From: Parvularculaceae bacterium
GTDB taxonomy: Bacteria > Pseudomonadota > Alphaproteobacteria > Caulobacterales > Parvularculaceae
Reading direction: 5' to 3'
DNA: 45,457 nucleotides
Assembly: GCA_013215175.1 (NCBI GenBank)
Contig: JABSRH010000003.1
Location: forward strand, 1-45,457
The stretch's first letter is position 1. The number at the start of each line of letters is the position of its first letter. The notes below the pieces were generated by a model, which saw nothing but the letters and a program-made list of their open reading frames with translations, was not told the origin of the DNA and ran no database searches. Shown piece after piece: positions 4,993-7,853 of this stretch. A program made the translations under genes and the position numbers.

Positions 4993-5418
4993 TTAGAAGA
5001 TGCCGAGGAATTTTTTGCGGCGCTTCTTCCAAGCCTCTTGGCGGTCCACAGCGTAGCTCAAATAGTCTGAACCCGAACGCCGCACGCGCGCTTCGGTGAA
5101 CTTGAGATCCGCGAGGAGCGTGTCGTCGAGGGCGCTGGGTGGTGTTTGCGTACCTGCGTCAAAGCTCATGGAGGCCTCGCGGCGGCGCGAGCCTCTCTTG
5201 GCTTTCGCTTGAAGGTCCGTGTGCAACGCCATCATGGCAGCTTGGACAGCGTCGCTAGCGTCAGCGCGGCCTTCGAACAAGGCCTCTTCCGCCAGGCGGC
5301 GTTCGGTTTGCATGGAGCGCGTCGGCGGGCGGGCATGGGCGCTGATATCGGTGGAGGTAAGCCGCGCCCGCGTGGTGCTGGCAAAGCTCTTCCAAATCTG
5401 GTCCAGACGGTCAGCCAT
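4993..5418 (-). CDS. Hypothetical protein, presumed partner of the upstream Ntn-hydrolase-like gene
   Basis: About 141 aa (MADRLDQIWKSF...KKRRKKFLGIF). ATG lies 2 nt after the TGA of the upstream gene; the track start (5424) is a TTG overlapping it. Confidence 0.75.
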   Translation of the reverse strand: MADRLDQIWKSFASTTRARLTSTDISAHARPPTRSMQTERRLAEEALFEGRADASDAVQAAMMALHTDLQAKAKRGSRRREASMSFDAGTQTPPSALDDTLLADLKFTEARVRRSGSDYLSYAVDRQEAWKKRRKKFLGIF

Positions 5419-5420
5419 GA

Positions 5421-6704
5421 TCAAAGCTCCGCTTTCTCTTTGCCCATCACGAGGCCCTCATTGCGGGTGATGGTCGCCAAACTGATCGGCCCACCGACGG
5501 TTTCCACGTCGTGCATGACCTTTTGCTGGAAGCTATTCAACTTGATAAGCGAGGCAGCCGTCTCACCAAGCTCTTTTTTCGGCAGCATGCTGACGGCCCT
5601 CAAGATCGGGGCGGTATGTGTTTGGTACTGGAATTGGTCGATCGAGCCAAAGAACGCCTTCAGCGCCGTGGCGAGTGAGCCTTCGGAATAGTCGGCCATC
5701 AAGCGGCGACGTTGATCATCCGAAAGGCCGGGCGCACGGCTGACCACATCACCCACGAGGTTGTGGCTAAGCTTCAGCGTCTCACCGAACATGAACATCC
5801 GCAGGTGCGCATCCATCCCCGTAAGGAAGGTCCGGATCATGCGATCCTGCGCAAACGGAGCAATCACGGGGCCAGAATTGGCTGTCATGTCCTGGCCCCG
5901 ATCCATTCGATGCTTCAGCTTTCCCAACACCACGCTGGACGCGAGGTAACTGCGCATCGAAGGAAACTTGTCGGTCCGGCCAAAGCCGGCAAATACCACA
6001 CCCGTGAAATGCTCGAAGAACGCGTCTTGCGTCACGGACATCACGGCGACGTCGCGGAGCTTGTCGCGGGTATCAGCACCCACGGAGAGCATCGGGTACT
6101 CGTTCTTCAGCATGCCGATGAGGCCGCCAATCAGCTCGTCTATCTCAGCACCATAACGGCGCAGCAGCTGTTCTTCGGTTCCCTCAGGAAAAACGTCGAG
6201 GCGGGCCCGCGCGGTCCCGTCCATGTTTTTGGTGAGGTCGCCGTAAAGCTCATCCACCACGTAGGCGAGGACGGCGGAGACGTGGTCGCGGGTCTTGCCC
6301 TGCCCGCTCTGTTTCAGCGCGCGGAGGTGATAGTCGAAATCGTCCGCAATGATCGAGAGCACCACGGTGACGTGCTTGAAGAACTCCGTGTCCTGGTGGT
6401 CTTGCGGGAAGAGCTCAGGATTGTCGGAGAGGAAGCGCATGAAGTCCTGCGCATAGGCGGCCAGCGTATCGAGCTGCCGCCCCCTCGCCTGCTCTCGATA
6501 GAGGGAGATGATGGTCTCCCAAGGCGTGCTCATGAGCTCAGCGTTGTTGTAGATCATCACGCCGATGGGCACGCCGTCCACGAGGGGAAAGAGCTTGTCC
6601 ACCGACTGGTAGGTCTTGAGATAGTTTTGACCGGAGATCGTCACGGCGCTGTCGGCGGCCATGGCCACCGCTTGCCGGTTCATGAGTACCACTTCCGAGG
6701 TCAT
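5421..6704 (-). CDS. Predicted proteasome beta/HslV-like Thr-Ntn hydrolase (divergent)
   Basis: From ATG 6704 (preceded by GGGAGAGG): M|TSEVVLMNRQAVAMAADSAVTISGQNYLKTYQSVDKLFPLVDGVPIGVMIYNNAELM. After Met removal Thr is residue 1 and Asp is residue 17; DKLFPL aligns with the Lys33 block (KKLF) of proteasome beta subunits. Track start 6749 is an upstream in-frame extension. Confidence 0.6.
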   Translation of the reverse strand: MTSEVVLMNRQAVAMAADSAVTISGQNYLKTYQSVDKLFPLVDGVPIGVMIYNNAELMSTPWETIISLYREQARGRQLDTLAAYAQDFMRFLSDNPELFPQDHQDTEFFKHVTVVLSIIADDFDYHLRALKQSGQGKTRDHVSAVLAYVVDELYGDLTKNMDGTARARLDVFPEGTEEQLLRRYGAEIDELIGGLIGMLKNEYPMLSVGADTRDKLRDVAVMSVTQDAFFEHFTGVVFAGFGRTDKFPSMRSYLASSVVLGKLKHRMDRGQDMTANSGPVIAPFAQDRMIRTFLTGMDAHLRMFMFGETLKLSHNLVGDVVSRAPGLSDDQRRRLMADYSEGSLATALKAFFGSIDQFQYQTHTAPILRAVSMLPKKELGETAASLIKLNSFQQKVMHDVETVGGPISLATITRNEGLVMGKEKAEL

Positions 6705-6812
6705 GCCCCACACCTCTCCCAAGACCCGTGCGGGCGCGGCCGAAGCCACGCCTCACAACCTGTTAACTTATTCCTAGGCCAAAAACCCGGAACTGACCAG
6801 GGGCCCTGGAAT

Positions 6813-7853
6813 TTAGGCCGCTTTCCGGCGCTTACGCGCCAGCAAAGCGAGGCCTGCGAGCATTAGTGGTGCTGCTGCTGGGACCGGGACGGGTGTCAGG
6901 CCCAGCTGTTCCATGGCTGCTGCGGCGAAAATGCGGTGGACCGCTGCGGTGGGGTGAACGCTGTCGAAGTCGGTATAGCCCAGGCAGTCCATCGCGAGCG
7001 CTTCAGGGCTGAGGATGCACGGCTGGCCGATGAGGCCGGGGTCAAAGCCGAATGCCGCCGGGTCGAAGAGGATGGCGTTGGTCAGGCCATCATTGTCGAA
7101 AAGCATCACGTTGTTGTCTGGGTCGGCCAGGTTCAGCGACTGGATGATGCCATTGAGGCTGTCGTTATAGGCTGAGATAGCACCAAACAGAGCTGCTTGT
7201 TGCTGGGGCGTGTCGGCGCCGAAGGCGATGACCGATGGCACGTTGGCGACGAGGATTTGGTTGGCGCCAGCGTCAACGAGTTGGGTCAGCGCCGTGGTCA
7301 TCGACGCCGCGGCAGCAGCTGCGAGGGCGGCCGGGTCCTGGATGCCCAAGCGGGCTGCGAGGAAGTCGTTGCCGCCGATGTGCACGACGTGCAGGGCGTC
7401 GCCGTCGAGACCCGGAGCGACGGGGATGCCGGAGATCATGCCGCCGTTGACATAGAGGTCCACTTGCTCAGCGAGATCCGGGATTGAGTCTGGAATGCCC
7501 ATGCCCTGATAAGGGTTGAGCGTCGCGCCTGCACCACCGGTGGCATAGTTGGGCTCTGGGTCGAAGGGGCTGGCCGAGGTCAGCAGCGCGTCGGCAGGAT
7601 CGCCGGTGATCTTCAGCGAGAGCAGGTCAGCATAGGTATAGCCGTTGCTGAACCGTCCTTGGAAATAAGGCGGAGACGGCGTGGGGCTCGGCACGCCGGC
7701 CAGAATGGCGCCAGCGTTCGCGTTGCCCGAATCGACGATGGAATCGCCGATCACGACGACGCCGGAGAAAGATGCTGCCTGCGCAGCGGTGCTAAGCGCC
7801 AAAGCGCCAAGGGTTGCCGCGATTGTCCGCGACACCGACCAGTTCCTTACCAT
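6813..7853 (-). CDS. Extracellular GDSL/SGNH-type lipase/esterase with VPxPA C-terminal sorting signal
   Basis: GDSIVDSGN block I, HIGGNDF block, DSVHPT catalytic Asp/His block; C-term VPVPAAAPLMLAGLALLARKRRKAA. Confidence 0.88.
   Translation of the reverse strand: MVRNWSVSRTIAATLGALALSTAAQAASFSGVVVIGDSIVDSGNANAGAILAGVPSPTPSPPYFQGRFSNGYTYADLLSLKITGDPADALLTSASPFDPEPNYATGGAGATLNPYQGMGIPDSIPDLAEQVDLYVNGGMISGIPVAPGLDGDALHVVHIGGNDFLAARLGIQDPAALAAAAAASMTTALTQLVDAGANQILVANVPSVIAFGADTPQQQAALFGAISAYNDSLNGIIQSLNLADPDNNVMLFDNDGLTNAILFDPAAFGFDPGLIGQPCILSPEALAMDCLGYTDFDSVHPTAAVHRIFAAAAMEQLGLTPVPVPAAAPLMLAGLALLARKRRKAA

Follow-up and report, generated by a model that had tools for sequence, protein, structure and literature searches.

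A PMI-4-like proteasome-fold hydrolase gene and its small partner in Parvularculaceae and on mobile elements

What might a large proteasome-like threonine hydrolase do in a bacterium when neither hslU nor any other ATPase gene lies next to it? The question is raised by a gene in a 45,457-nucleotide stretch of DNA from a Parvularculaceae bacterium, the whole of which is referred to here as the window (Table 1). A sequence-only reading of the window had proposed an undescribed peptidase of this fold in a two-gene unit, and had rightly noted the lack of an adjacent unfoldase. Functional clues are few for the 22 proteasome-like families catalogued in 2021, and their gene context has been of no help. 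The small partner gene next to the hydrolase gene, together with transposons that carry the pair, provides a first functional handle on one of these families, PMI-4, in the form of a candidate binding partner, a minimal two-gene system and a likely role class.

Table 1. Coordinates of features in the window and in other loci (L numbers)
Feature	Location	Strand	Details or basis
PMI-4-like proteasome-fold Thr hydrolase gene	5421..6704	-	427 aa, ATG at 6704, stop included
Shine-Dalgarno-like GGGAGAGG of peptidase gene	6713..6720	-	read from sequence
Predicted catalytic Thr codon (Thr1 after Met removal; Thr2 with Met)	6699..6701	-	178/178 informative homologues
Asp17 codon (Asp18 counting Met)	6651..6653	-	homologue alignment
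Lys36 codon (Lys37 counting Met), equivalent to proteasome Lys33	6594..6596	-	homologue alignment
Helical insertion 1 (residues 101-225), after H1/H2	6030..6404	-	AlphaFold model
Helical insertion 2 (residues 329-372), between H3 and H4	5589..5720	-	AlphaFold model
Core strands S10-S11 (residues 407-422), C-terminus	5439..5486	-	AlphaFold model
Small partner gene, 141 aa	4993..5418	-	ATG 2 nt past peptidase stop, GGAG at 5430-5427
Basic-hydrophobic C-terminal tail of the partner (KKFLGIF)	4996..5016	-	conserved in Parvularculaceae
IS1-like transposon with pair	L034 3580-6330		perfect 8-bp target duplication; genome of the window's own genus
IS1-like transposon with pair	L163 5700-8398		perfect 8-bp target duplication
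IS1-like transposon with pair	L333 771-4251		perfect 8-bp target duplication
IS1-like transposon with pair	L132 4279-7049		matching repeats, no duplication
KGG-type basic gene	L034 6020-6325; L163 5700-6010; L333 776-1087; several other TIR loci		
Other proteasome-like Thr proteins as cargo (predicted)	L274 2633-3943; L280 4455-5489; L285 4780-5622; L308 4070-4984	-	

Active site, fold and family of the hydrolase

The open reading frame is real: it and its start are kept in nearly all sampled Parvularculaceae, far beyond chance. The start is the ATG that had been proposed, and a GTG start at 6749 is ruled out because Met-Thr is constant in the relatives, whilst the residues 5' of it are unrelated between homologues or are interrupted by stops, with an in-frame stop 2-6 codons upstream in several relatives. 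In 44 relatives the aligned start is always Met (ATG, GTG or TTG) followed by Thr, and in distant relatives one of these three codons stands exactly at the position of the window ATG. Judged from sequence and model, the peptidase is made without a propeptide. Methionine aminopeptidase would remove the initiator Met and, in keeping with established Ntn chemistry, expose Thr1 as the N-terminal nucleophile. Across the 183 loci examined, Thr1 is found in every informative homologue (178/178), Asp17 in 177 and Lys36 in 177 of 181 homologues; in a 105-row homologue alignment all three are invariant, which bears out their proposed place in the active site. The tentative equivalent of the oxyanion Gly47 is Gly in 83 of the 105 homologues and Asn in the window protein.

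Database searches gave few leads. There was no match to peptidase or partner in Pfam, NCBIfam or PADLOC, none to the window proteins in a sequence-only PDB search and none in BFVD at E <= 0.001. The window protein has no match at the PF00227 cut-off, and only 4 of the 105 homologues touch this family, weakly (E up to 0.1, best 0.002). In a profile search of the PDB, Thermoplasma 20S beta came up at E 0.005, with an alignment over the segment from Thr1 to Lys33 and over the GGxIDVAVI strand, and with chance coiled-coil matches beside it. The AlphaFold2 model, built on the 105 alignment rows, has a pLDDT of 94.2 and a pTM of 0.90, and runs from S1-S4 with H1-H2 (helices 62-72 and 81-94) through the first insertion, strands 234-285, H3, the second insertion and H4 to S10-S11. 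In a Foldseek comparison with the PDB, 20S subunits were the top matches (E from 8.7e-5, probability 1.00) and Anbu ranked below them; the TM-scores, about 0.5 by target length and 0.3 by query, are low, presumably because the insertions dominate the chain. The triad and the model together uphold the assignment to the proteasome-fold Thr-Ntn hydrolases, and the window protein is predicted to be an active hydrolase. The long helical C-terminal extension that had been described is absent: S10 (407-413) and S11 (417-422), a segment that also aligns with Thermoplasma 20S beta and Anbu, form the very C-terminus of the model, and the extra helices are the two internal insertions.

Where these insertions lie bears on how the enzyme might work. 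It had been suggested that the protein is a self-compartmentalising ring peptidase that, like BPH, degrades proteins without a dedicated ATPase, and the fold, the active site and the absence of an adjacent ATPase gene would suit such a peptidase. However, the insertions are large and fall at the pore-loop site and between H3 and H4, the helices of inter-ring contact. Ring assembly is not the default expectation, because insertions at such sites could block the formation of rings or double rings (PMC8665760). The universal small partner also suggests a different mode of control, and a ring peptidase is considered decidedly unlikely.

The protein belongs to a widespread group. About 450 genome matches to the peptidase were found, in many phyla and including archaea and phages. 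Amongst the 149 relatives searched, 70 have a match, and in the Parvularculaceae 59 of 62 genomes have a match at about 60% identity or more and at least 99% query coverage; in a phylum-wide sample the count is 8 of 299 genomes. Fuchs, Alva and Lupas, who catalogued the 22 new families in 2021, described two, PMI-3 and PMI-4, whose only insertions are those after H1/H2 and between H3/H4, the latter name standing for proteasome homolog with multiple insertions 4 (PMC8665760). PMI-4 resembles the window family in its catalytic Thr, Asp and Lys, its lack of a propeptide, its two insertion sites and its occurrence in Proteobacteria, Firmicutes, Actinobacteria, Bacteroidetes, PVC, Cyanobacteria, other bacteria, Euryarchaeota and phages. 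It is preferred to PMI-3 because it alone spans the phyla and phages found here. The window protein is thus probably a PMI-4, as judged by the published architecture and distribution of the family, whose reference sequence is HDY66466.1, and the same match means that the peptidase is probably not undescribed. It would add a member to a family that has been catalogued but hardly looked into; a search of the accessible literature for follow-up work on PMI-4 found none.

The small partner gene

The partner gene, for which the sequence-only reading offered no interpretation, is the most informative part of the locus. That reading's two-gene unit holds well, since the partner is conserved with the peptidase in 18 of 18 Parvularculaceae loci. 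Partner homologues lie directly 3' of the peptidase throughout this family, and within 8 kb flanks no other gene is common to all 18 loci, the next best neighbour being present in nine. In the Parvularculaceae the partner gene is truly coding, as its substitutions fall mostly at third codon positions (3209, against 1487 and 1204 at the others).

A short open reading frame with an ATG and a Shine-Dalgarno sequence, typically of 50-75 aa, also follows almost every peptidase in the 183 loci, and its start often overlaps the peptidase stop. In bacteria, archaea and phages alike, the two genes are usually spaced in a way that suits translational coupling. Downstream starts were scored directly because all-against-all clustering of neighbours gave mainly antisense peptidase open reading frames. 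Under a strict rule (ATG plus Shine-Dalgarno, 45-85 aa) a partner was present in 52 of 80 homologue groups, compared with 32 of 832 (3.8%) other genes in the same loci and 1.8% at random positions. A looser rule found a candidate in 82 of 86 groups, and most of these candidates start between -35 and +30 nt of the peptidase stop. A recognisable partner was not found at L117, L120, L161, L178 and L179. In phages and on a plasmid, independent annotations also show a coding sequence of 41-58 aa immediately 3' of the peptidase gene.

The partner proteins are small, charged, partly disordered and fast-evolving. About 37 partners, whose hosts include archaea, Nitrospirae, Planctomycetes and Firmicutes, are brought together by one profile, of the YFP type (consensus YxSxxEFxKxYFPK...DPxxLGxxLAxESLxKI), and partner families are homologous across distant hosts. 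A Firmicutes set has an FFNLP motif, and the Parvularculaceae partners end in KKFLG(I/L)F, a tail that is all they share with three Maricaulaceae-type partners. By sequence comparison, the partners are too divergent to be shown as one family. Partner and peptidase distances are correlated, with a Mantel r of 0.87 in Parvularculaceae and of 0.64 in the YFP-type set, which falls to 0.26 at one member per group. For a partner of the YFP type, AlphaFold predicted helices but no compact fold, and the low pTM of 0.39 means that neither fold nor interface is established by the model. Natural fusions of hydrolase and partner were looked for among the homologues and none was found; a longer Mesorhizobium homologue has a basic tail and was not counted as one.

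These properties suggest that the partner is not an independent enzyme but a binding subunit, for the most part helical or disordered, by which the hydrolase would be inhibited, activated or targeted. In the Parvularculaceae the partner appears to have gained its basic-hydrophobic tail, which could tether the complex to the membrane or dock on the hydrolase. A docking role of KKFLGIF like that of HbYX or HslU motifs was considered and is weakened by L028, where the motif is internal (GIFGKLFGSKK); by its sequence, the L028 segment is closer in character to a membrane-targeting helix.

The gene for Pup, too, lies next to proteasome genes. A small, charged, partly disordered and rapidly evolving protein that is always co-encoded with the hydrolase could also be a dedicated substrate of that enzyme, a tag or a peptide precursor, to be cleaved or attached by it, as with Pup or a processed signal peptide, and the conserved C-terminus in Parvularculaceae could be the recognition site. 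However, the conserved features vary by lineage, being an internal YFP, an FFNLP or a C-terminal FLGIF, which leaves the partners with no cleavage or attachment site in common, and no ligase gene is adjacent. A substrate or tag is therefore a rather unlikely role for the partner.

Mobile and resident pairs

The hydrolase and its partner are found together in Streptococcus satellite phages, at a prophage end, in other phages and on an Enterococcus plasmid, and peptidase homologues are also borne by plasmids, those of Rhizobium among them. An IS1-like transposase gene (PF03400) lies 3' of the partner in five loci of alphaproteobacterial or viral origin. The elements in L034, L163 and L333 are complete: each measures about 2.7-3.5 kb, is bounded by inverted repeats of 19-22 bp and carries a KGG-type basic small gene, the peptidase-partner pair and a PF03400-type transposase. 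The element in L132 also carries the pair and such a transposase, and its repeats, as in the other three, are like GGTAGTGGGTCAGTTTGAA. The small basic gene (GRxGGLKGGKARA...RRxEIAxxAAxxRW) has no Pfam match, and stands at one end of many IS1-like elements whatever their cargo.

The sample of elements is small, with about 12 distinct ones collected by TIR alone and four with the pair. Amongst the former, L271, L285, L300, L316 and L329 carry XRE-IrrE, SocA/Panacea or PemK genes, the XRE-IrrE matches in L300 and L316 being weak. Proteins with an N-terminal MT or VT and an Asp17-type pattern, lying outside the PMI-4 profile, are encoded in L274, L280/L284, L285 and L308; only that of L280 touches PF00227 (E 1.8e-4), and the others are taken to be proteasome-like on our reading of the sequences. 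The link to toxin-antitoxin systems that the XRE-IrrE, SocA/Panacea and PemK cargo suggests is an indirect one, by association.

Other neighbours are mixed. The window peptidase lies amongst DUF3089, DUF502 and GDSL lipase genes, and the lipase (window 6813-7853, minus strand) ends in a sorting-like tail (VPAAAPLMLAGLALLARKRRKAA) of the kind known from PEP-CTERM-type proteins. A YbjQ gene (PF01906) follows the partner in 6 of the 18 Parvularculaceae loci (e.g. L229 9672-10046), and an SPFH/stomatin-like gene lies further out in eight. L034, L035/L114 and L036, also from Parvularculaceae, have a distantly related peptidase copy, paired with a short partner of its own, which in these genomes either supplements the core copy or takes its place. 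On the Mesorhizobium plasmid MesoLj131c2 (L193 2733-7437) a peptidase homologue with a basic C-terminal tail is encoded beside ThiF-family E1 and multiubiquitin genes. Several neighbours of homologues are defence genes (MmeI-type IIG, Hma, SoFic and Septu/Gabija-like ATPases), which, coming from a scan without a control, are only suggestive.

The reading preferred here, for and against which the case seems evenly balanced, is that a PMI-4-type hydrolase and its partner form a self-contained peptidase-regulator module, toxin-antitoxin-like when mobile and resident in the Parvularculaceae. The context of the mobile pair would fit a toxin-antitoxin or host-parasite conflict module in which the peptidase is the effector and the partner the regulator. 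In the Parvularculaceae, because the pair is near-universal there, it is likely to be a resident gene pair with a cellular role. It is suggested more tentatively, at somewhat less than an even chance, that PMI-4 is the effector half of a widespread toxin-antitoxin-like or anti-phage system, with the tiny partner as its regulator, that is mobilised by IS1-like elements, which would move several further proteasome-like families as well, and has been domesticated in the Parvularculaceae. If so, mobile conflict modules would gain a new enzyme fold, and proteasome evolution would have a new setting. Both the near-universal partner and the toxin-antitoxin-like mobile context appear to be unreported.

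Relation to known proteasome-like proteins and toxin-antitoxin modules

Three proteasome-like proteins are encoded in the window genome: HslV (C275:3028-3546), an Anbu-like protein (C157:6411-6980) and the PMI-4-like protein. HslV and 20S beta share with the window protein the core fold and a Thr1/Asp17/Lys33-type active site, but the adjacent hslU gene that would mark an HslV is lacking at the window peptidase, and a profile comparison with HslV was below significance. Anbu likewise starts with Met-Thr without a propeptide, and its VGxPxD/L strand aligns at S10-S11. However, Anbu is about 250 aa, has no large insertions and has a C-terminal H5 helix after S11, whilst the model of the window protein ends right after S11; the profile comparison was weak (25.9% probability).

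In connectase a proteasome-like Thr enzyme carries out ligation instead of degradation (PMC8665760), and this precedent raises the possibility that the window protein is a sequence-specific protein ligase or transpeptidase acting on its partner or on a host protein. The hallmarks of connectase are a two-helix insertion between S3 and S4 and the loss of H1 and H2. In contrast, the window model has H1 and H2 and no S3/S4 helices, and no recognition motif was found, which makes a connectase-like activity highly improbable. PMI-4 itself was published with no genomic context hinting at function (PMC8665760), whereas here a small partner gene lies 3' of nearly all members.

Type II toxin-antitoxin modules resemble the pair in consisting of two adjacent, often overlapping genes and in being mobile, and the pair occupies the cargo region where related IS1-like elements carry XRE-IrrE, PemK or SocA/Panacea genes. 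The pair differs from them in its candidate effector, a proteasome-like hydrolase, and in its partner, in which no DNA-binding domain can be recognised. Its near-universal vertical conservation in the Parvularculaceae is also unlike that of an addiction module.
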